64,000 bases of DNA from a virus, in the IMG/VR virus record IMGVR_UViG_3300030104_004476, positions 1 through 64,000 of that record. The stretch is one strand, 5' to 3'. The translations under genes and the position numbers were made by a program. The notes under the pieces are model-generated. The model saw only the letters and a list, made by a program, of their open reading frames with translations. It was not told where the DNA came from and searched no databases. Below are positions 1-61,920 of this stretch, piece after piece; the first letter of the stretch is position 1, and each line of letters starts with the position of its first letter.

Positions 1-150
1 GCTATTGAAACTATAGACGAAGGTTTATATGAATTAATAGGTAAAGATGAAGATGATCCAGATGGATTTTATGAAGACTACATGGAGTGTTTACCACATA
101 TAGTTAAGAATATAAGTAAATTTCAAAATATAGTAGATGAAGAAGATTAA
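1..150 (+). CDS. Small acidic phage protein, 5' truncated by window edge
   Basis: The reading frame is open from base 1 to a TAA at 148-150 and encodes the last 49 residues of a protein nearly identical to the 64-aa product at 61284-61478. The start lies outside the window. The product is acidic, with no signal peptide, membrane segment or recognised domain. It is the first member of the repeated early block, and the next frame starts inside its 3' end. Function is unknown; near-identity between copies argues that it is a real gene. Confidence 0.8.
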   Translation, partial: AIETIDEGLYELIGKDEDDPDGFYEDYMECLPHIVKNISKFQNIVDEED

Positions 151-283
151 AGAAATATTAAAAGATATGTTCACTTATGAACCTAATATAATTAAAAAAT
201 TAAAAGAATATGAGCAAAAAGAGAAAGCTGAACAGCAAAAATCCAAAGTACAAAACACAAGCAGAAATAAAAGCAACTACTAA
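137..283 (+). CDS. Small basic protein overlapping its downstream neighbour
   Basis: A 48-aa lysine/glutamate-rich frame begins inside the previous gene (14-nt overlap) and its last half overlaps the 210-368 frame in a different phase. The homologous frame at 61465-61599 is also open but shorter. In the shared 74 nt the copies differ at three bases, and all three change an amino acid here (V/I, S/G, Y/N) while being silent in the overlapping frame. The C-terminal half is therefore probably weakly constrained. Function is unknown and the case for translation is moderate. Confidence 0.5.
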   Translation: MKKIKEILKDMFTYEPNIIKKLKEYEQKEKAEQQKSKVQNTSRNKSNY

Positions 284-368
284 AGATGTTGACAAAAAGG
301 TGCTAATTAAAGAGCTAACAAGACAAGGTGTTAAAGGTGTTAAGGTATACGCTACATTTTACAAATAA
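210..368 (+). CDS. Conserved 52-aa basic protein
   Basis: This short basic protein (starts MSKKRKLNSKNPKYK) is identical at the protein level to the product of 61526-61684. Every nucleotide difference between the copies is silent in this frame, including those in the overlap with the 137-283 frame, which directly supports real coding and purifying selection. No known domain was recognised; the basic N-terminus followed by a probable alpha/beta segment could bind nucleic acid, but that is a guess. The promoter-like motif for the next gene begins three bases after its stop codon. Confidence 0.75.
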   Translation: MSKKRKLNSKNPKYKTQAEIKATTKDVDKKVLIKELTRQGVKGVKVYATFYK

Positions 369-370
369 AA

Positions 371-393
371 TACGAACACTAACGGATAATATA
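371..393 (+). promoter_or_regulatory. Early promoter-like motif (TACGA-N8-GGATAATATA)
   Basis: TACGA at 371-375, eight bases, then GGATAATATA at 384-393, preceded by an ACAAATAAAA stretch. Same spacing and flanks as seven other copies in the rightward region. It lies 15 bases upstream of the gene at 408. Confidence 0.7.
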
Positions 394-407
394 ATAAATT
401 AAATAAT

Positions 408-602
408 ATGAATATGAGTTACTGCAGGTTCGAGAACACAGAAAAGGACCTAACTGATTGCCTTTATGCAATAGAAGAAGGAGATTACACAGATTTATCT
501 TCTTATAGAGAAGAACAGGCTTTAAGAAGTTTGTTTGATACTTGTGAAGCAATACTTGATCACAAAGATGAAGTATTAGAAAAATTAAATGACAATAGCT
601 AA
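408..602 (+). CDS. Conserved small phage protein (MSYCRFENT family)
   Basis: A 64-aa acidic protein beginning MNMSYCRFENT, a start typical of a small protein family common in many unrelated phages and of unknown function. Translation could start at the first or third codon. The copy at 61921-62121 differs at only three positions over the first 61 residues, then diverges at the C-terminus. It is the first gene after an early promoter-like motif. No catalytic motif or membrane segment is visible. Confidence 0.8.
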   Translation: MNMSYCRFENTEKDLTDCLYAIEEGDYTDLSSYREEQALRSLFDTCEAILDHKDEVLEKLNDNS

Positions 603-613
603 TTAAATAAATT

Positions 614-850
614 ATGAGAAAAAACTTATGGCAAAAGCTTTCGCCTGATATGCGAGACAAAATTGAAAGCGTACAAAGCAAATATCCTACTATGTATATA
701 GATATTAAAGCTAACTTAGAAACTGAATCTTTTTGGGATGAGCTAAGTATCAACACTGTAAGTAATATATTAACTTTCACGGATACACCTTTATATACGG
801 TCAATAGTAATACGTGGAAATATGGAGATGGTATATTATGCGAAGATTAA
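614..850 (+). CDS. Unrecognised 78-aa early protein
   Basis: An ORF of 78 codons 11 bases after the preceding gene; its end overlaps the next start by 13 nt, so it sits in a tight operon. The sequence is mixed alpha/beta with several tryptophans and no recognised motif. At the same place in the right-hand block an unrelated 63-aa gene occurs (62123-62314), so this is a swappable cargo position inside an otherwise conserved early block. Function is unknown. Confidence 0.6.
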   Translation: MRKNLWQKLSPDMRDKIESVQSKYPTMYIDIKANLETESFWDELSINTVSNILTFTDTPLYTVNSNTWKYGDGILCED

Positions 851-945
851 TATATGACATGTACTATAAAGAAGAAATATCAATGGAAATTGCTATGAGA
901 TTATTAGATAAATTAACAGAATTAAGTAATAAAAGAAGGCGATGA
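838..945 (+). CDS. Conserved 35-aa helical peptide
   Basis: A 35-codon gene (starts MRRLIYDMYYKEEIS), largely helical and basic at both ends. It overlaps the previous gene by 13 nt, and its TGA stop overlaps the next start (ATGA). The copy at 62314-62421 has only conservative differences although the genes on its left side differ between blocks, so it is conserved independently. It resembles a tiny DNA-binding or adaptor peptide, but no family could be assigned. Confidence 0.6.
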   Translation: MRRLIYDMYYKEEISMEIAMRLLDKLTELSNKRRR

Positions 946-1334
946 GTACAAGAGCGCAAGTTAGATTCGCTACACGAGAAGAAGGAGTATCGTTTAGCGA
1001 ACACCCAAAAGTTATACACGCACAGTTTTATGTGCATCACGATGGTTATCCAGAAGGACTAGGTTTAGAGATAGCCGAGTCGTTAACTAAATATCAAAAG
1101 ATAATGCACTGGGAAATAGAAGAGTTGTTTACTAGACACAGCGATCTTGAATATGTATATTATGTATGGCAACACCCAATGAAAACTACGTGGATTAGTA
1201 TATTTGAAGAAAGATATAATAAAGACTTAACCAAGTCTGATAAGTGTATATTCGTAGGTGAACCAAGTAATCTTATAGATAAGTACAAAGAAAAACCTGA
1301 AAAGGTTGATCGAGACTACTTAGATTATGTATAA
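942..1334 (+). CDS. Conserved phage protein of unknown function (MSTRAQVRF)
   Basis: A 130-aa protein beginning MSTRAQVRFATREEG. It resembles a widespread phage family of unknown function with a conserved 'FYVHHDGYPEGLG' segment near residue 30 and a 'WISIFE' strand near residue 88. The start is fixed by an ATGA overlap with the upstream 35-aa gene. The right-hand copy (62674-63045) is almost identical until a different C-terminal tail. No membrane or signal segment; cytosolic. Family membership rests on the N-terminal pattern only. Confidence 0.75.
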   Translation: MSTRAQVRFATREEGVSFSEHPKVIHAQFYVHHDGYPEGLGLEIAESLTKYQKIMHWEIEELFTRHSDLEYVYYVWQHPMKTTWISIFEERYNKDLTKSDKCIFVGEPSNLIDKYKEKPEKVDRDYLDYV

Positions 1335-1346
1335 TTACAAACTAAA

Positions 1347-1369
1347 TACGGATGAAAAAGGATAATATA
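1347..1369 (+). promoter_or_regulatory. Early promoter-like motif overlapping a gene start
   Basis: TACGG, eight bases, GGATAATATA, with the usual ACAAACTAAA upstream flank. The motif ends three bases before an in-frame ATG at 1373. The same arrangement is kept at 63027-63049. If transcription starts just downstream, the message would be leaderless or nearly so. Confidence 0.6.
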
Positions 1370-1372
1370 ATT

Positions 1373-1627
1373 ATGACAGACGAACAATTAAGAAAACTAA
1401 TAGATGGTCTTGCTAATCAAATGGTAAAACGTATTTATGGCGTAACTGAAGAGCAAAGCCAAACTACGTTCTATGCAGACAGAGATGAAGATCACGCTAT
1501 GGGTGAGTTAGCTAGGCTAATGACACTATCAGCTATATACGAAGACAGAGAAGAATATGAAAAATGTGCTGCGATTAAAAAACATATAGATAAAATAAAT
1601 AAAATTATAGATAGATATGATGCGTAA
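1373..1627 (+). CDS. Small UVR-motif protein
   Basis: An 84-aa protein from the ATG at 1373 (an in-frame ATG at 1352 would add seven residues that lie within the promoter-like motif, so the inner start is preferred). Residues about 55-78 match the UVR motif of UvrB/UvrC and ClpC-type proteins (EDREEYEKCAAIKKHIDKIN), which mediates protein-protein contacts. The copy at 63053-63307 differs at three residues. It overlaps the ligase start by 11 nt, suggesting coupling with DNA ligation or repair. Its exact role is unknown. Confidence 0.7.
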   Translation: MTDEQLRKLIDGLANQMVKRIYGVTEEQSQTTFYADRDEDHAMGELARLMTLSAIYEDREEYEKCAAIKKHIDKINKIIDRYDA

Positions 1628-2468
1628 AAAACCAATGCTAGCATATCCAGTTAGCTCAAAACCAATTGATTACACCAAACCTGTATTTATGCAACCAAAG
1701 CTTGATGGTGTACGTTGTCTTATACAATATGACGGCACTGAAAGCCTTGTTGCTTATTCACGTACAGGTAAAGTATGGAAAAATATAAACCATATATTAT
1801 ATGACTTAATACCTTTTTTCAAAAAGTATCCTGATGTTATACTTGATGGCGAGCTATATAATCACGATCTAAAAGATGATTTTGAAACTATTATATCTAT
1901 TGTCAGAAGACAAAAACCAGATGACATAGACATGCTTAATTCGCGCGATCTTGTACAGTTTCATTGTTATGATTATATTCCTGGTCCAGCATTGCTTAAT
2001 GCTAAGTTTGATAGTCGTAATGTGTGGCTGAAAGCTGAGTTGCCACAAAGTTATTGTGTTAAACATGTATATACTACTAAAATAGAAGAAAGCCAAGCTA
2101 ATATTCAACATCAATGTAATTTAGATGAAGGCTACGAAGGTTCTATACTACGTATTAATACTGAATACCAATGCAAACGATCTCACAGTTTACGTAAGTT
2201 CAAAGACTTTTCTGACACTGAAGCTGTAATTACAGGCTGGGTTGAAGGTAAGGGTAAACGTGTAGGTACTATCGGTAAGTTTATGGCTATCGATGCTGAT
2301 GGTAATGAGTTCGGCATGCCAGTCATGGATAAATTCAAAAAGTTACAAACAATGTTTAAAGAAATGCAAGGTTGGGTTGGTCAAACAGCTACGTTTACAT
2401 ATTTTGAACGTACTAAAGCTGGCTCATACCGTCACCCATTATTTAAATGTATACGAAACTACGAGTAA
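1617..2468 (+). CDS. ATP-dependent DNA ligase, T7-like
   Basis: A 283-aa nucleotidyltransferase joining nicks in duplex DNA using ATP. Motif I KLDGVR (adenylated lysine) lies near residue 28, motif III LDGELY near 81, motif IV EGSILR near 176, and motif V-like LRKFKDF near 192. A C-terminal OB-fold-like region includes GKGKRVGTIGKF. It is shorter than T7 ligase (359 aa) but contains the full core. It starts inside the UVR-motif gene. A second, clearly diverged copy begins at 63297; the motifs and termini are conserved and the middle differs. It probably seals fragments during phage replication and recombination. Confidence 0.9.
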   Translation: MMRKKPMLAYPVSSKPIDYTKPVFMQPKLDGVRCLIQYDGTESLVAYSRTGKVWKNINHILYDLIPFFKKYPDVILDGELYNHDLKDDFETIISIVRRQKPDDIDMLNSRDLVQFHCYDYIPGPALLNAKFDSRNVWLKAELPQSYCVKHVYTTKIEESQANIQHQCNLDEGYEGSILRINTEYQCKRSHSLRKFKDFSDTEAVITGWVEGKGKRVGTIGKFMAIDADGNEFGMPVMDKFKKLQTMFKEMQGWVGQTATFTYFERTKAGSYRHPLFKCIRNYE

Positions 2469-2469
2469 T

Positions 2470-2952
2470 ATGAATATATTTTATTTAGACAAAGATCCAG
2501 TTAAAGCTGCTAAAGTACAGTATAACAAGCACGTAGTCAAAATGATACTTGAGTCGGCTCAGATGTTATGTACGGCTCATCATGAATTACTAGATGATCC
2601 TGATGTACCATACAAACCAGCTCATGTAAATCACCCATCAACAATATGGACTAGAAGTGATAATCATCATTACCATTGGTTATATGATCACATGCTGGCC
2701 TTAGGTGATGAGTATACTAAAAGATATGGTAAAACACATTTATCAATAATTAAATGTAAAGAAGCATTACGATTAGCACCTGTTAATATACCACATGTAG
2801 AGTTTAAACAACCTCCGCAGTGTATGCCAGATGAATATAAAGATAAATGTAGTATACAAGCTTATTGGAATTATTATATAGGTGAAAAACACATAGTAGT
2901 AAATAAAAACAAAGAAAAATTATATGAACAAAGACCTAAAGAAACGTATTAA
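2470..2952 (+). CDS. Conserved phage protein, possible DNA-repair-like family
   Basis: A 160-aa protein starting MNIFYLDKDPVKAA one base after the ligase stop; an upstream in-frame extension into the ligase gene is rejected. The 'KHVVKMILESAQML' helix, 'HVNHPSTIWTR' and 'PPQCMPDEYK' segments are hallmarks of a family common in marine phages. It may be related to pyrimidine-dimer glycosylase-like proteins, but I recall this only weakly and no catalytic residue can be assigned. Clustering with ligase fits nucleic-acid processing. Several histidines could bind metal. Confidence 0.7.
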   Translation: MNIFYLDKDPVKAAKVQYNKHVVKMILESAQMLCTAHHELLDDPDVPYKPAHVNHPSTIWTRSDNHHYHWLYDHMLALGDEYTKRYGKTHLSIIKCKEALRLAPVNIPHVEFKQPPQCMPDEYKDKCSIQAYWNYYIGEKHIVVNKNKEKLYEQRPKETY

Positions 2953-3067
2953 AAAGTTTAATAATATAAAATATGTTAAAGATAATTCTAAAAGAATTAT
3001 TATTGCAACATTAAGTGTTAATTCAGGTAGAGTATGGAGCGTGACAACAGCCCCTAAGAATAAATAG
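2924..3067 (+). CDS. Small basic 47-aa protein
   Basis: The frame opens 29 nt before the previous stop and ends at a TAG 10 bases before the next gene. The product is lysine-rich at its N-terminus (MNKDLKKRIKKFNNIK), followed by a short beta-like segment. No family was recognised. Part of the left arm of the dyad at 3041-3084 lies inside its 3' end, so regulation and coding overlap here. Confidence 0.5.
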   Translation: MNKDLKKRIKKFNNIKYVKDNSKRIIIATLSVNSGRVWSVTTAPKNK

Positions 3068-3084
3068 TAACAGGCTTATGTCAT
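3041..3084. promoter_or_regulatory. Long dyad spanning the start codon of the HTH gene
   Basis: Left arm TGACA-AC-AGCC (3042-3052) is mirrored by right arm GGCT-TA-TGTCA (3073-3083). The ATG of the 3078 gene lies within the right arm. Two further dyads with the same arms lie at 58821-58866 and 59349-59396. It could be a DNA operator or an RNA hairpin hiding the start codon. Confidence 0.65.
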
Positions 3085-3698
3085 ACGAAAGAAACCTAAA
3101 ATACCTAAATAATAATAGGATTACTTATAGGCGTTTACCTATAACTGATAAACCTACAATAGATACCAAAGAATACATGTTTTACGAAAACGGTACGCAT
3201 GAGTGCTATGAGTTATTCCGTTCGTCAGCAAAAATAACTACATATAAGTCTCTAAAATGGCACTTACTTGTTCTTTGGTATCTTAACCCTCAACTTGATC
3301 CTGATGACTTTAATAAGTTAGCAGAGGTTATATCTCATAAACCAAATGGTTTTGTAAGTTTTGAGTTGTCAGATAGAATATTAGATAAGATTATATATGG
3401 AGTTAGCATGGCTGATTTAGAGCGTCCACCAAAAAATAAATTACGTAAAGTTATATTTAAACCTTTTACTGGATTAACTAAAGAACAAAAATTATCTATC
3501 GTAGGATCATTAATAGGTGTAACAAATAAGATACATTCAGACGACATATATCAATGTATGATAGATACACATGACATAAATAAAAAGATTACAATAAAAC
3601 GGCTCTCTGAGCTTCTTAACGTATCACAACGAACTATACATAGACACATGTGTGAAGATTTAAAAAGAGAAAAAGAATTATTAAACCAACAATTATGA
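3078..3698 (+). CDS. HTH DNA-binding protein, candidate early regulator
   Basis: A 206-aa protein whose C-terminal part (about residues 168-200) forms a clear helix-turn-helix: ITIKRLSELLNVSQRTIHRHM, followed by a charged helix. The N-terminal 160 residues are not recognised and may be a dimerisation or replication-initiator-like domain. It overlaps the sigma-factor gene by 4 nt (ATGA), so the two are probably translationally coupled. A long dyad covers its start codon and recurs in the early/late control region, which suggests autoregulation and control of the switch (inference). Confidence 0.7.
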   Translation: MSYERNLKYLNNNRITYRRLPITDKPTIDTKEYMFYENGTHECYELFRSSAKITTYKSLKWHLLVLWYLNPQLDPDDFNKLAEVISHKPNGFVSFELSDRILDKIIYGVSMADLERPPKNKLRKVIFKPFTGLTKEQKLSIVGSLIGVTNKIHSDDIYQCMIDTHDINKKITIKRLSELLNVSQRTIHRHMCEDLKREKELLNQQL

Positions 3699-4447
3699 AA
3701 AAATATAACTCAAACAATTTCAGTAGATATAAAGTAGATGTTAAATCTTCTCAACCAACTAGTAAACATTATAGTGAATATACTAGAGATGAAATGGTTG
3801 CAAGGTTTTTACCATTAGTTGAAAATATTGCGCGTAAATTTAATAAAAGTGAATCATCAAGTGGTATATTATCTTTATCAGATATGATACAGTTTGGAAA
3901 TATAGGTTTAGTAAAAGCTGTTGATAAAATAGATTGGTTGAAATTAGGTCAATCAAACGATATCGAAAAAACACTAAAGTCATTTTTATCTAAACGTATT
4001 CGTGGAGCTATTCGTCGTGCTACAGATGCTAATCGTTCTGGTATGAGATTACCTGAGCATAAGCTTAACGAAATACGTAATGACTTTGAAAATCCTAATA
4101 ATTCAGAAATGTTTTTTAACTCAATGTTTCAAAGTATTGATTCAGGAGTAAACAACGATGAAAATCACGTGTATCAAATAGAAGATACATCAGGAGATCC
4201 AATGAAAAAAGAACACTTAGCTTATAAACTTCGTGACGTTATGTTACAATACTTAAATGATAAAGAATATAATGTTCTTTGCTTAAGCTTTGGTTTAAAC
4301 TGTGATAAGCTTTCTGCTAAACAGATCGCAGAAAAATTAGATATGAAAGGTAGTAGTTCTTATGTTCGTGTTTCACAGTTAAAAAAGCAGGCAATTGACA
4401 AATTAAAAAAGGTAATGGACTACTCGCAAGTAGTTGATTACCTGTAA
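3695..4447 (+). CDS. Sigma-70 family RNA polymerase sigma factor
   Basis: A 250-aa sigma factor. Region 2 lies at about residues 30-110, with the core-binding DMIQFGNIGLVKAVDKID segment and the 'RIRGAIRRATDANRSGMRLP' melting/recognition segment. Region 4 is C-terminal: 'YNVLCLSFGLNCDKLSAKQIAEKLDM' then an HTH. Sigma regions 1.1 and 3 look reduced. It should redirect host RNA polymerase to phage promoters. Given eight copies of one non-host promoter-like motif in the window and no phage RNA polymerase, it is the natural candidate for recognising that motif or the late variant. Confidence 0.85.
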   Translation: MKKYNSNNFSRYKVDVKSSQPTSKHYSEYTRDEMVARFLPLVENIARKFNKSESSSGILSLSDMIQFGNIGLVKAVDKIDWLKLGQSNDIEKTLKSFLSKRIRGAIRRATDANRSGMRLPEHKLNEIRNDFENPNNSEMFFNSMFQSIDSGVNNDENHVYQIEDTSGDPMKKEHLAYKLRDVMLQYLNDKEYNVLCLSFGLNCDKLSAKQIAEKLDMKGSSSYVRVSQLKKQAIDKLKKVMDYSQVVDYL

Positions 4448-4518
4448 GTTATACAAGTAAAATAAATTAAATTATTAATTTCTTATGTAATTATATATAA
4501 GAACAAACCATATACCAA

Positions 4519-5061
4519 ATGAAAGATTTAACCAAAAAATTAGCTGACATTCAAACTAAGCTAAAAGCAAAAAAATCTTCGTATAATTCTTTTGGAAAGT
4601 ACTACTTCCGTAAAGCCGAAGATATTCTTGAAGGTGTAAAACCTTTTTTATTACAACACAATGTTTATGTAACAACAACTGAAGAAATTGTTGGTATTGA
4701 ACCTGTACCAATGATGAAGACTACTGCTACTATTAGTGACGGCGAAAATGCTATACACGCCACAGCTATAGTGGGAGTTGACCTTGGTCAAAAAGGCATG
4801 CAGACGTCTCAACAGTTTGGGGCAGCATCTACCTATGGTAAAAAATATGCTCTTGGTAATTTATTTCTTATCGATGATACTGAAGATGCTGACGCTACCA
4901 ACAACCACGGTAAAGCTCAACAAGTTACAGTTAAGAAAAAAGCTAAGATAACTAAAGAGCAAATGGATAAAGCTGTTGAGTTCGTAAAAGGTGGAGGATC
5001 AGTTGAAGCTATTAAAAAGAAATACGAATTAACATCAGCGCAAATTAAACAACTAGCGTAA
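4519..5061 (+). CDS. ERF-family single-strand annealing recombinase
   Basis: A 180-aa protein. Residues 1-125 match the ERF superfamily (as in phage P22 Erf): 'KKSSYNSFGKYYFRKAEDILEGVKPFL' and 'QQFGAASTYGKKYALGNLFLIDDTEDAD'. The C-terminus is lysine-rich with a small helical domain resembling a SAP/HTH-like tail. ERF proteins anneal complementary single strands. It is followed with a TAATG overlap by a RecE-like exonuclease, forming a standard two-component recombination module. Preceded by about 70 bases of A/T-rich leader without a recognisable early motif. Confidence 0.85.
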   Translation: MKDLTKKLADIQTKLKAKKSSYNSFGKYYFRKAEDILEGVKPFLLQHNVYVTTTEEIVGIEPVPMMKTTATISDGENAIHATAIVGVDLGQKGMQTSQQFGAASTYGKKYALGNLFLIDDTEDADATNNHGKAQQVTVKKKAKITKEQMDKAVEFVKGGGSVEAIKKKYELTSAQIKQLA

Positions 5062-5795
5062 TGACGAAAGAAATTTATCATAGATTAAAAAACGACAAAG
5101 ACTACTACGGTGAGTTTGGTCAACAGTTTTTAAGCAATTCGGATATATCGACACTATTGAAAAATCCTAAAGACTTGCACAAACCAAGACCTAATAGTCC
5201 AGCGTTTTTAATTGGCGGTTATTTTCATACCGCAATACTTGAACCTCAAAAACTTAAAAGTTTTAAGATCGTTGAAGCTACAACTCGTAATACTAAGGCG
5301 TACAAAGAAATATCTGAAGGCGAAATGTGTTTACTTAAACACGAAGTTGACAAGGTAGAATTAATGACGCAGGTTATTATGGACAATGATGTTTGTAAAG
5401 ATCTTATTCAACCGGTACTAGGTCAAGTAGAATATGAAGAGCCACGTGTTGGTAAAATCCACGGTCAAATGTGGAAAGGTAAAGCAGATATAATTAACCA
5501 TGAAGAAAAACTTGTTATTGATCTAAAAACCACTGGTGATATAGATAGATTTCAATGGTCAGCTTCAAAGTATAATTATGATAGTCAAGCTTTCATATAC
5601 TCAACCTTATTTGGATACGAAATGCTATTCGTTGTAATCGACAAGGAGACGCATCAAATAGGTTTATTCGATTGTTCACCAGAGTTTTATAAACGTGGTG
5701 AAGAAAAAGTACGTAAAGCTTGTGATGCGTACGAGTTATTCTATCAAACAGAAGACTTTGACTACAAGCAACATTTATTAACTAAAACCCTTTAA
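5061..5795 (+). CDS. PD-(D/E)XK exonuclease, RecE-like
   Basis: A 244-aa nuclease of the RecE/exonuclease VIII C-terminal type. Residues about 135-155 contain the catalytic strand set 'GKADIINHEEKLVIDLKTTGD' (Asp ... Asp-x-Lys), and the QxxxY motif is seen in 'YDSQAFIYSTLFG' near residue 175. It would resect double-stranded ends to give 3' single strands for the ERF protein encoded immediately upstream (TAATG overlap). The length is typical of phage members of this family. Confidence 0.85.
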   Translation: MTKEIYHRLKNDKDYYGEFGQQFLSNSDISTLLKNPKDLHKPRPNSPAFLIGGYFHTAILEPQKLKSFKIVEATTRNTKAYKEISEGEMCLLKHEVDKVELMTQVIMDNDVCKDLIQPVLGQVEYEEPRVGKIHGQMWKGKADIINHEEKLVIDLKTTGDIDRFQWSASKYNYDSQAFIYSTLFGYEMLFVVIDKETHQIGLFDCSPEFYKRGEEKVRKACDAYELFYQTEDFDYKQHLLTKTL

Positions 5796-53743: not shown

Positions 53744-54001
53744 CTATTCTACTAAAACTACATCGCGGCCTCTTATTACTTGGTACATTGTATCTTTCCA
53801 CGTAATTCCATGTCCAGCGTGTTTATCATAGTGTACTACATCTCCATCTTTTAATCCTTGTACTAAATTACCTGTAGAAATGATAGTAGCCTTTATATAC
53901 CTATTATCTTCGTCTAGGTTTTCTGTTAAGATTAAACCACCAATTTTCTTTGGTCCTATCTTTTCTTTTTCTACTACTATATAATCGTTAACTGCCTTCA
54001 T
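53744..54001 (-). CDS. groES: Co-chaperonin GroES
   Basis: An 85-aa co-chaperonin lid protein, slightly shorter than bacterial GroES (~97 aa). It has an N-terminal strand 'DYIVVEKEKIG', the mobile loop with 'GGLILTEN' (consensus GGIVL), a roof region, and a C-terminal 'GITWKDTMYQVIRGRDVVLVE', matching the conserved 'Y.i....DilaVv' end. It is encoded after groEL on the minus strand, overlapping it by 14 nt, which is opposite to the usual groES-groEL order. It should cap the phage GroEL or a host one. Confidence 0.85.
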   Translation of the reverse strand: MKAVNDYIVVEKEKIGPKKIGGLILTENLDEDNRYIKATIISTGNLVQGLKDGDVVHYDKHAGHGITWKDTMYQVIRGRDVVLVE

Positions 54002-55553
54002 TTATTCTAATGTTTGAAATTACACAATCTGCAGAGATAATAGTTGAAACAACACTAACTGCATTTTTCAGGGCTGATTTAGTAACAAGTACAGGATCTA
54101 CGATGCCTGATTGTATCATATCTACAAACTCTCCAGTGATAACATTCATTCCTTCACCTTCTTTCATATCTAAATTACACATTAATCCTGCATTGTCTAA
54201 TATAGTGTTGTATGGAGCTTTTATAGCTTCAAGAAGTAATTCTTCACCGACGGAGTCGGAGGAAATTTTTTGAGAAGCATTAAGTAATACTACACCACCG
54301 CCAGGAACAATACCTTCTTTTAATGCAGCTTTGGTAGCGTAAATAGCATCTTCTACTCTATCTCTTTTCTCTTTCAACTCTACCTTAGAGTCAGCACCTA
54401 CGTTGATTATACCCACAGAGCCTGATAACATAGCTAATCTCTGCTCAAGTTTCTTTTTCATGAAACCGTTTTTTTCATCAGCAATTTTTTTAGCAACTTC
54501 ATCAATCCTTTCTCCTATCTTCTCATTTATTTCGTCAAGAGTTATCACTGTACTCTTGTCATCTGTAGTAGCAAACTCAGCTTCTCCTAAATAGTCAACA
54601 CTAATAAGATCTAAATCATCACCTAGCTCTTCATTTATAACGGTAGCGCCAGTTAATATAGCTAAGTCCTCAGTAGCATCTTTCTTAGTAGGACCGAAAC
54701 CTGGTAAATCAATAATATTAACTTTAATATTACCTTTAACTTTGTTCATCAGTAAAGCAGATTTAACTTGTTGCGCGACAGGTGCTACAATAAGTAAAGC
54801 TCTACCTTGTTTAATAACATATTCTAATATTGATTGTATTTTACGGATGTTAGGGATTTCAGAAGATACTATAAGAATTAAAGGATTTTCTAGCTCACAT
54901 TTATGTTTCTCTGTGTTTGTAACGAAATGTGGAGAAGTTAATCCACAATCTACTTGAACACCATCTACTAGTTCAACATAAGTTTCTTCAGTTTCTGATG
55001 TTTCCATCAATACTACACCATCTTTACCTACTTTAGTATAGGCTTCTGCAATAATTTGTCCCAAAGTTTCATCATTATTACATGAAATCGATGAGACACT
55101 TTGAAGCATATCTCCTTCTACGCTAACAGCTACTTTGTCTAAGTATTCATTAATTTTTTTAAGCCCAGAATTTATACCTGATTTTATTTCTCTGATAGAT
55201 TCTCCACTATATTTGGGATCATTAACTGTTTTTAACAAAGATTCAGCTAGCACAGTCGCTGTAGTAGTTCCATCACCTGCTTCTTTTACTGTATTTTGAG
55301 CAGCTTCTTTAATAAGTGTTGCTCCTAAGTTTTCAACAGGATCAAATAACACAACAGATTGTGCTACTGTAACTCCATCTTTTGTAATTACTGGATTTCC
55401 ACGTGCGTCTTCGTAGATTACGCATTTCCCCGAGGCTCCGAGGGTTGATTTTACTGCTTTTGCTAGTTTTTCTACACCAGCAATTACTTTTTGTTTTGCA
55501 GAATCGCCAAAGTTTAGATCTTTGACAATTTCGCTTGGTAAATTGTATTCCAT
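53988..55553 (-). CDS. groEL: Chaperonin GroEL (60 kDa)
   Basis: A 521-aa chaperonin. Equatorial-domain ATPase motifs are intact: 'STLGASGKCV' (STLGPKGR in E. coli), 'TKDGVTVA', 'EAGDGTTTATVLAESLL' with the hydrolytic Asp, 'VEDAIYATKAALKEGIVPGGGVVLL' (equivalent of D398 and the G-loop), so ATP cycling is likely preserved. The apical domain is present. The Gly-Gly-Met tail of bacterial GroEL is missing. Probably folds capsid or other phage proteins. It forms a translationally coupled pair with groES. Confidence 0.92.
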   Translation of the reverse strand: MEYNLPSEIVKDLNFGDSAKQKVIAGVEKLAKAVKSTLGASGKCVIYEDARGNPVITKDGVTVAQSVVLFDPVENLGATLIKEAAQNTVKEAGDGTTTATVLAESLLKTVNDPKYSGESIREIKSGINSGLKKINEYLDKVAVSVEGDMLQSVSSISCNNDETLGQIIAEAYTKVGKDGVVLMETSETEETYVELVDGVQVDCGLTSPHFVTNTEKHKCELENPLILIVSSEIPNIRKIQSILEYVIKQGRALLIVAPVAQQVKSALLMNKVKGNIKVNIIDLPGFGPTKKDATEDLAILTGATVINEELGDDLDLISVDYLGEAEFATTDDKSTVITLDEINEKIGERIDEVAKKIADEKNGFMKKKLEQRLAMLSGSVGIINVGADSKVELKEKRDRVEDAIYATKAALKEGIVPGGGVVLLNASQKISSDSVGEELLLEAIKAPYNTILDNAGLMCNLDMKEGEGMNVITGEFVDMIQSGIVDPVLVTKSALKNAVSVVSTIISADCVISNIRINEGS

Positions 55554-59079: not shown

Positions 59080-59292
59080 ATGCAATTAACTAAAAAAAGA
59101 TTTGTAATTAGCAAATCACTAATCGGAAAAAATGTAGTAATTACTTTCACTACTAAAAAAGGTACATTCACTTATAATCATGACGATGTGTATTCTATTA
59201 ATCAAGAAAAACTAGAGTCGATGGAGTGCTTCCAGAAATATGGTAACTATACTAATAGTAATAACTTACCTACTTGGGCTCGACTTTCATAA
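59080..59292 (+). CDS. First rightward gene, 70-aa phage protein
   Basis: A 70-aa basic protein: 'KKRFVISKSLIGKNVVITFTTKKGTFTYNHDDVYSINQEKLESMECFQKYGNYTNSNNLPTWARLS'. The W/'YGNYTNSNNLPTWARL' tail recalls a family of small early phage proteins. Function is unknown. It follows an early promoter motif, and a hammerhead ribozyme begins at the base after its stop codon, so its mRNA 3' end is likely created by ribozyme cleavage. Confidence 0.7.
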   Translation: MQLTKKRFVISKSLIGKNVVITFTTKKGTFTYNHDDVYSINQEKLESMECFQKYGNYTNSNNLPTWARLS

Positions 59293-59342
59293 GTAATACT
59301 GATGAGACTTCAATAGTCGAAACTACCTCGGTAGTCTATTAC
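59293..59342 (+). ncRNA. Type I hammerhead ribozyme
   Basis: All conserved core elements are present in order. Stem I 5' strand GTAATA (59293-59298); CTGATGA (59299-59305); stem II GACT/AGTC with loop TCAAT; GAAA (59319-59322); stem III ACTAC/GTAGT with a CTCG loop; cleavage triplet GTC ending at 59336; stem I 3' strand TATTAC (59337-59342), a perfect complement. Predicted self-cleavage is after C59336. The ends lie in stem I, hence type I. It immediately follows the stop codon at 59292 and precedes a long dyad. Confidence 0.85.
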
Positions 59343-60481: not shown

Positions 60482-60493
60482 ATACAAATTAAA

Positions 60494-60516
60494 TACGATT
60501 ACTTTTGGATAATATA
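60494..60516 (+). promoter_or_regulatory. Early promoter-like motif 4
   Basis: TACGA, eight bases, GGATAATATA with ACAAATTAAA flank; about 20 bases before the start at 60538. Confidence 0.7.
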
Positions 60517-60537: not shown

Positions 60538-60753
60538 ATGAATAATTATTGTAGATGTGGTGAGCCCGTACACCCAGTTAGAATTAAATACGGGTATAAA
60601 ACTTGCGTACAATGTAGTGGTATCGAGCGTGTTGCTTGTGCTCCACTAACTAATCACAAGACAGGCAATACAATACAAATAGTGTCGCAAGCACAATCAG
60701 CTGCGCTAATAAAAGCAGGTAGTCGTAAAGGTTACGGTACTTGTCTTAAATAA
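60538..60753 (+). CDS. Zinc-finger protein, DksA/TraR-like motif
   Basis: 71 aa from the ATG at 60538; an in-frame TTG upstream lies inside the promoter motif and is rejected. 'YCRCGEPVHPVRIKYGYKTCVQCSG' is a four-cysteine zinc finger like those of DksA/TraR (C..CG..I...R...G...C..C). The C-terminal 'NHKTGNTIQIVSQAQSAALIKAGSRKGYGTCL' is a conserved phage tail. DksA-like proteins bind RNA polymerase secondary channel, so it may tune host transcription early. That role is inference. Confidence 0.65.
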   Translation: MNNYCRCGEPVHPVRIKYGYKTCVQCSGIERVACAPLTNHKTGNTIQIVSQAQSAALIKAGSRKGYGTCLK

Positions 60754-61478: not shown

Positions 61479-61599
61479 AAAAATATTTAAGTACGAACCT
61501 AAAATTATTAAAACGCTAAAAGAATATGAGCAAAAAGAGAAAGCTGAACAGCAAAAATCCAAAATACAAAACACAGGCAGAAATAAAAGCAACAACTAA
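61465..61599 (+). CDS. 44-aa basic protein overlapping the next frame
   Basis: Homologue of 137-283 (MKRIRKIFKYEPKIIKTLKEYEQ). It is four residues shorter and more diverged than its overlapping neighbour. In the overlap, substitutions relative to the left copy all alter this product while remaining silent in the neighbour, so this C-terminus looks weakly constrained. Real translation remains uncertain. Confidence 0.45.
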   Translation: MKRIRKIFKYEPKIIKTLKEYEQKEKAEQQKSKIQNTGRNKSNN

Positions 61600-61684
61600 A
61601 GATGTTGACAAAAAGGTGCTAATTAAAGAGCTAACAAGACAAGGTGTTAAAGGTGTTAAGGTATACGCTACATTTTATAAATAA
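61526..61684 (+). CDS. Conserved 52-aa basic protein, second copy
   Basis: Protein identical to that of 210-368 despite nucleotide differences, hence under purifying selection. The stop codon TAA ends exactly where the structured-RNA candidate begins; its last base is shared with the RNA's first stem. Function unknown, basic N-terminus. Confidence 0.75.
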   Translation: MSKKRKLNSKNPKYKTQAEIKATTKDVDKKVLIKELTRQGVKGVKVYATFYK

Positions 61685-61858
61685 ACGAGGTGAGGGTGGT
61701 AGCGCGTGAGATGTGTATGTAGTGAATTGGCTCGACTAGTGATAGCAACGAAACTACAATCTTACTCACTTGGCAGAACGGCAGGATAAAGCAAAAGAGA
61801 TAACAGACCACAGGCATGTGCTTGAAACTCAATGAACCACACCTGCCCGACCTCGTTT
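61684..61858 (+). ncRNA. Structured RNA candidate, ~175 nt
   Basis: The ends close in a long interrupted helix: AACGAGGT with ACCTCGTT, AGG with CCT, GTGGT with ACCAC. Inside are GTGAG/CTCAC, GTAGT/ACTAC and CACA-GGCA-TGTG hairpins. GC content is higher than the surroundings, the 3' end is T-rich, and no reading frame fits. The whole element is absent from the homologous site at 368-370. It is not a tRNA, tmRNA or RNase P RNA by its motifs. Orientation as + RNA is inferred from context. Confidence 0.6.
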
Positions 61859-61873
61859 TATTTACAAATAAAA

Positions 61874-61896
61874 TACGAACACTAATGGATAATAAT
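61874..61896 (+). promoter_or_regulatory. Early promoter-like motif 5
   Basis: TACGA, eight bases, GGATAATAAT; counterpart of 371-393. It begins 15 bases after the structured-RNA candidate and precedes the gene at 61921. Confidence 0.7.
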
Positions 61897-61920
61897 ATAA
61901 ACCAAATAAAATAAACCAAT

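Follow-up and report, generated by a model that had tools for sequence, protein, structure and literature searches.

The stretch of DNA analysed here, hereafter the window, comprises positions 1 to 64,000 of the IMG/VR virus record IMGVR_UViG_3300030104_004476 and carries near its end a structured RNA element at positions 61685–61859 (plus strand), which runs from a closing helix through a U-rich 3' tail. The element is directly preceded by the stop codon (61682–61684) of atfyk, a gene of 52 amino acids (aa) located at 61526–61684 on the same strand. Its ends pair as a helix of 9 bp, referred to as P1 (AAACGAGGT at 61683–61691 with ACCTCGTTT at 61850–61858), in which ACGAGGT (61685–61691) faces ACCTCGT (61850–61856) and two more pairs extend outward to 61683 and 61858. 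The G+C content of the element is 47.7%, compared with 34.1% for the window and at most 43.1% for every other non-overlapping stretch of 174 nt between 58.8 and 64 kb. An earlier note on this DNA, made from the sequence alone, had described a structured element with paired ends, GC enrichment and an AAATAAA motif on either side at this place, and all of these were recovered. It had also stated that the element has no reading frame; a mechanically called open reading frame (ORF) of 83 aa with a TTG start (61668–61919, minus strand) overlaps it.

The two AAATAAA flanks lie at 61679–61685 and 61866–61872. The left one is the end of atfyk (Tyr-Lys-stop), and the right one is the start of the promoter-like motif of the next operon (61871–61894), which has the form AAATACGA-N9-GATAATA. 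This motif has eight matches in the window at no more than one mismatch, all on the plus strand, where 0.03 would be expected. As no match lies between the motif at 60491–60514 and that at 61871, the element should be the 3' end of a transcript starting at 60491. This transcript would carry zf (60538–60753, plus strand; 71 aa, Cys-rich), p174, an ORF of 64 aa and atfyk before reaching the element.

Homologues were collected by scanning IMG/VR with patterns of the element and with the neighbouring p174 protein, and by one pattern scan of host genome contigs. Stretches returned by the pattern scans (78, 42 and 60 per scan) were treated as chance matches if they lacked the second motif half, as was the case for 22 sites in one scan. 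A common core, GCGCGTGAGAYGTGT ... AYCTTACTCACTTGGC, is held by 45 records, 44 of them in addition to that of the window, with 41 distinct sequences. Two types were distinguished. The 30 type B elements (69–193 nt as cut) consist of the core closed by ACGAG-N-GTGGC / GCCAC-CTCGT, while in the 15 type A elements (126–277 nt, that of the window included) this core is surrounded by an outer domain, GGGTGGT ... ACGGCAGGATAAAG ... CCACRCCTGCCC. A covariance model (R1) built from 16 type B sequences only (alignment A1), with the window left out, matches the window at 61702–61774 (43.7 bits, E 6.8e-10) and has no other match in it at E ≤ 1. The matched region consists of the two halves of the type B core, GCGCGTGAGATGTGT (61702–61716) and ATCTTACTCACTTGGC (61759–61774), containing respectively the strands GTGAG (61706–61710) and CTCAC (61765–61769) of an inner helix, P2, and of a variable hairpin cassette between them, V1 (61717–61758), closed by the stem TGTAGT/ACTACA (61718–61723 with 61753–61758). 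The outer domain, M, adds a conserved box, AGAACGGCAGGATAAAG (61775–61791), and a second variable cassette, V2 (61797–61830); all of these features are on the plus strand. R1 misses a true member of the family, L123 (a type B element with a long V1), so a non-match by this model is weak evidence.

The outer box was found in 60 stretches, many of which have the outer domain by itself or a plain hairpin where the inner core would be. In L188, L191 and L201, a stand-alone outer domain lies directly 3' of a promoter-like TATCTTTG, which resembles the Bacteroidetes -7 promoter box. The domain is preceded there by a gene whose product has DLPF at its C-terminal end, like single-strand-binding proteins, and followed by a downstream gene. 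The minimal forms of this arrangement, following TATCTTTG and upstream of a gene, are at about 4420–4670 of the reverse strand of L188 and at 4880–5000 of L191; in these phages the domain could be a cis-acting leader. A second outer-domain element lies beside the first in L086 (8399–8630), and its different inner domain recurs in L194. The scan of host genome contigs gave a single match, L152, on a contig of a Sphingobacteriales metagenome-assembled genome which carries relatives of zf and p174 and may be a mis-binned phage. The exact gapped pattern of the outer domain has no match in 395 genomes of the same bacterial class, which shows only the absence of that exact pattern.

Comparison of the homologues supports the fold. 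The inner core consists of P2 and an invariant internal loop (AYGUGU / AYCUUA), and V1 starts after GUGU and ends before UCUU. Among the 41 distinct elements, the first closing pair of V1 is always of the Watson-Crick type while taking four forms (GC in 16, TA in 11, CG in 11 and AT in 3), and the second and third pairs are standard in 39 of 41 each. The closing stem has a mean length of 4.5 bp, as opposed to 0.8 for mismatched halves. Taking one representative of each of the 27 distinct closing stems, 99 of 108 cells are paired, compared with 44.3 ± 5.2 (maximum 66) in 10,000 shuffles. The earlier note had proposed a test for covariation among homologues from related phage contigs; over the whole structure the covariation score is 0.214 for alignment A1 and 0.050 for shuffled alignments (none of 500 as high). 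P2 occurs as GUGAG/CUCAC, as GCGAG/CUCGC (L189, L213 and L231) and as GUAAG/CUUAC (L202). The forms of P1 differ, yet they always pair in the 19 elements examined (for instance AAACGAGGT/ACCTCGTTT, GTAAAGGGT/GCCTTTTAC, GGAGAGT/ACTCTCT and AGGTT/AACCT); the forms with TTGGGTGG were included for these elements, which come from 18 chosen loci rather than from all. A further alignment of six sequences (A4), several of them cut short of their 3' ends, was set aside. The outer domain is likely an H-type pseudoknot, as suggested by the complementarity of GUGGU with ACCAC (proposed stem S1, 61696–61700 with 61836–61840, plus strand, invariant) and of GGCAGG with CCUGCC (proposed stem S2, 61780–61785 with 61842–61847, plus strand, nearly invariant with one G-U form in L197). 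The element has homologues with compensatory changes, and would represent a new family of structured non-coding RNAs.

While the frame of the element is conserved, its hairpins are found in different places. A stretch of 33 nt of the window V1 recurs unchanged in socket V2 of L105, with variants in L120 and L123, and the 74 nt at 61777–61850, which hold the window V2, are shared exactly by L218, whose element has no type B core. Other exact stretches are common to L086 and L096 (62 nt), to hairpin 2 of L046 and V2 of L108 (54 nt), to L008 and both L086 and L096 (52 nt), to these same three loci and a separate simple hairpin in L006 (46 nt), and to V1 of L006 and hairpin 2 of L133 (39 nt). The 52-nt stretch joins clade I (L008), defined by p174 at least 59% identical, to clade II (L086 and L096). 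Between the window and the other clade, the identity is 29–39% for the p174 protein and 46–57% for zf, while p130 and the ligase are closer (mostly 53–79%). Scans with two cassettes gave 3 and 4 stretches, all in loci of the same phage group. The V2 hairpin is absent from some elements (L071 and L096). Given this exact sharing and the sockets without a hairpin, a cassette is a movable unit which may be present, absent or moved between sockets, and its closing stem is adjusted by paired changes.

Several companion RNAs were observed in the same regions. Further recurring intergenic RNAs, some of which share modules with the element, occur in arrays in L013 (5221–5420), L015 (5070–5195) and L025 (5409–5615), and the motifs recurring in array RNAs are CTAGTCAGGTTTAACAATAAGC...CACCTGACGCCGGT, AAGTAGG...CCTACTTTATAAT and AAAGAGAGG...CTCTCTTTAT. 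RNAs resembling tRNAs lie near the element in L004, L006, L008, L013, L015, L023, L025, L081, L086, L131, L143 and L152; they have a 3' end like GGTTCGATTCCTCACTAGCT or GGTTCGACTCCACCCTTGGGC and a matching acceptor strand, with a replaced or very long middle, and ARAGORN calls none of those given to it (L131, L143 and L152 were not among them). Another intergenic motif, roughly GTACTAGTAAGNNTCTYCTAGNCNCGCTC...GGCA, recurs in L046, L075, L108 and L189.

A single core was found in each of 44 of the 46 records scanned, a count which applies to records, whether complete genomes or not, and for which five extra matches with one mismatch were taken as listed, without individual inspection. Of the same 46 records, the 15 of type A and no others have the outer box, with two copies in that of L086. 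In the records where both were located, the core lies 1.5–3.5 kb upstream of the ligase gene. In clade I, all 28 type B loci holding zf have the RNA, or an array of RNAs, beginning at the stop codon of that gene, and no element follows atfyk in any of the 13 type B loci holding atfyk. This is reversed in the window and in L014 (also clade I), where the site at the zf stop codon is empty and a type A element directly follows atfyk; in L123, of clade II, a type B element follows atfyk. This pattern looks like the replacement and inter-clade transfer of one RNA gene. With homologues in 44 other records, a covarying stem and a single core in nearly every record, the case for a discrete RNA gene is strongly supported by these comparisons.

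The earlier note had proposed an insertable RNA gene or small mobile element, and a check of other insertions for AAATAAA flanks. The proposal survives in part, as the RNA gene changes place between two fixed sites, while it is the internal hairpins that move most freely. With one core per record and two alternative sites the element is not a dispersed repeat, and a mobile repeat with several dispersed copies was rejected on this account. The flanks are explained by the position of a type A element directly after atfyk, since the left AAATAAA closes a gene and the right one opens a promoter-like motif. As the left flanks of other homologues also differ, a target-site duplication by AAATAAA was rejected.

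The same note had contrasted the element with its absence from a second copy of a repeated block. The absence is real: at the matching site, the stop codon of atfyk (366–368, plus strand) adjoins a promoter-like motif (368–391). Colinear ends exist as well, since positions 1–5203 of the linear, 66,408-bp record correspond to 61329–66408 with 77–91% identity, and each end has a ligase gene (73% identical to one another). These identities are however read as those of two related phages joined in assembly, so that what looks like two copies within one genome is probably a pair of alleles from two phages. Of the 17 records with a ligase match, only that of the window has two full copies; 15 of the 16 others have one and the last (G017) has one split match. 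We consider the assembly join to be the likely origin of the presence/absence difference in the window, and a true duplication within one genome to be less probable. The element itself is untouched by this, since the site is occupied in L014 as well and empty in 13 clade I type B loci.

Searches of known families and phages returned little. No Rfam 15 family matches in the window at gathering score, and the Rfam scan of the element that the earlier note had proposed gave only two chance-level matches at E ≤ 10; among 12 homologue loci Rfam found only a tRNA (in L007), and nothing relevant in RNA arrays and a bare M domain. ARAGORN found no tRNA or transfer-messenger RNA (tmRNA) in the window, and in 38 homologue loci one tRNA-Arg, beside and not within the element of L007. 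The Rfam hammerhead models have no match within the element, in agreement with the earlier reading that it is neither a tRNA, a tmRNA nor a hammerhead. Elsewhere in the window, at 59263–59341, there is a candidate hammerhead-like ribozyme (CTGATGAG...CGAAAC...GTC, closing stem GTAATA/TATTAC), for which the best Rfam match is RAGATH-1-hammerhead (24.5 bits, E 0.13, below the gathering score of 56.3). Searches of the INPHARED collection with blastn gave two chance-level hits for the element and none for two type B arrays, and the zf protein has no relative in it. The nearest named relatives by terminase (739 aa, phrog_6681) are an uncultured spring phage (65%) and Flavobacterium phage elemo (46%); R1 has no match in five named relatives, and no named phage examined carries any part of the element or of the wider family. 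Pfam searches of five small proteins encoded nearby yielded nothing usable. The window also encodes a GroEL-like chaperonin at 53988–55553 (phrog_5725, E 5.4e-132).

Taken together, we consider it very probable that the element is an RNA gene with exchangeable cassettes, and about an even chance (roughly 0.5) that it is a phage structured-RNA gene in which a fixed scaffold takes plug-in hairpin cassettes, which it may display as binding hairpins. As the comparison shows, the scaffold consists of P1, the inner core with P2 and its invariant internal loop, the socket V1 with its covarying stem and an optional second hairpin, and the long form adds the outer domain holding the inner core and the socket V2. 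The element would be made as the 3' end of the operon starting at the 60491 motif and the RNA would be stable. Hairpins swapped intact within a near letter-perfect frame suggest that something constant, such as processing, protection or a phage protein, acts on the frame, and that the cassettes meet something which differs between hosts. Each cassette may bind a particular host or phage protein or RNA, and the scaffold may present the cassettes together during infection as a decoy or an assembly platform, with exchange occurring because hosts differ in the partner, which would be a defence or a host factor. Decoys directed at host factors or defences would agree with these observations, but a binding platform or decoy, rather than another role, is a tentative assignment of rather low probability.

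A number of observations weigh against this interpretation. Neither P1 nor P2 varies among the 16 type B sequences of A1, so their support rests on few variant loci. The cross-control of P1 is weak (5–11 bp for own strands, a mean of 5.1 for crosses, with 49 of 90 crosses reaching 5 bp) because all forms of P1 are purine-rich, and the two stems of the pseudoknot hardly vary and thus have no support from covariation. In the closing stems G-U exceeds A-C by only 4 to 1, and no more than 25 of the 41 elements fold better as the forward strand, so the RNA strand is favoured and not proven. The folding energy of the element is unexceptional (z -1.36, with 18 of 200 shuffles folding equally well), the z-score is about 0 for the 170-nt core, and type A elements give weak values from 0.04 to -2.5. 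As the energy of single sequences is ordinary, it was rejected as evidence for the element and the case rests on the homologues. Two of the 46 records (L017 and L024) have no core and only a simple hairpin at that site. The only sign of selection on the contents of the cassette loops is their identity between distant phages.

The main rival to a scaffold with exchangeable cassettes, though unlikely, is an elaborate intrinsic terminator or stabiliser of the 3' untranslated region, in which the transcript of the operon ends at the closing helix and U-run, with the large apical part as passive filler. The position of the element, with a stop codon before it and the next promoter-like motif after it, would agree with this, as would the simple hairpin found at the same site in L017 and L024 and the sequence ...CCACCTCGTTTT in which type B elements end (30 of 30). 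However, L075 has no U-run (CCTCGTAATA), and in arrays further RNAs separate the type B element from the next promoter-like motif. The conservation of the core and of the outer box goes far beyond the needs of a terminator, with conserved letters lying in loops, and passive filler is not expected to keep cassettes of 33–62 nt identical between distant phages. A scan for intrinsic terminators found no canonical one here, within its loop limit of 8, while the element has a loop of more than 140 nt between the strands of its closing helix, followed by a U-run.

A less probable explanation is a selfish mobile hairpin element like the mosaic hairpins of fungal mitochondria, with cassettes or whole elements spreading as DNA. 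Identical cassettes in different sockets and types of RNA, together with presence or absence at two sites, are what such spreading would give, but the single core per record in a constant region upstream of the ligase and the lack of target-site duplication are not, and since closing stems differ from socket to socket by paired substitutions, it is the folded form that must be under selection. A site at the DNA level, present once per genome and folded in single-stranded form (an origin of replication, or a site of packaging or recombination), is very improbable, since the occurrence of a hairpin-rich element once per record in a fixed region is offset by its location on the operon strand directly after or near a stop codon, the cassettes common to other intergenic RNAs (tRNA-like ones included), the stand-alone outer domain right after a promoter-like sequence and the slight excess of G-U over A-C.

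The element can be compared with several known systems. Species 1 and 2 of phage T4 are stable RNAs of unknown role inside phage tRNA clusters, and resemble the present case in the intergenic array with tRNA and tRNA-like genes (L007); the element differs in having no Rfam match, and to our knowledge cassette exchange has not been described for these species. The mosaic mobile hairpin elements of fungal mitochondria and the GC clusters of yeast are likewise hairpin pieces recombined into mosaics, but these are dispersed and multi-copy, whereas here one core per record is found at a syntenic place. The packaging RNA of phi29, about 174 nt long, is similar in length and phage origin; the element has no match in Rfam, and the terminase of the phage here is the 739-aa phrog_6681 protein described above. 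GOLLD and ROOL are structured non-coding RNAs of undetermined role, often found in phages and near tRNA genes, and the element is like them in these respects. It differs in having no match in the Rfam library searched, which we take to hold models of both. It is also much smaller than these large ornate RNAs (PMC12286853), and has swappable cassettes where they have one conserved overall fold. As a structured RNA alone, the element would be a new family of a known kind. Its novelty lies in the exchange of intact RNA cassettes among sockets and classes of RNA, as far as can be said from limited literature searches: search listings of the open-licence PubMed Central literature gave no description of such an RNA, and we know of no described case of such exchange.

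A family of structured phage RNAs is usually known by a single conserved fold; in the present one only the frame is constant, and hairpins pass between sockets, between types of RNA and between distant phages. It is conceivable, as a speculative view, that each genome of this phage lineage has one scaffold RNA, with autonomous RNA domains of 30–60 nt swapped in and out of it and among scaffold, tRNA-like and simple hairpin RNAs, thereby presenting host-specific decoys or ligands, possibly against host defence. If expressed, the element would add a family of RNAs and an array of companion RNAs beyond the library searched, and would be a natural system for asking how RNA domains shuffle and what the cassettes bind.
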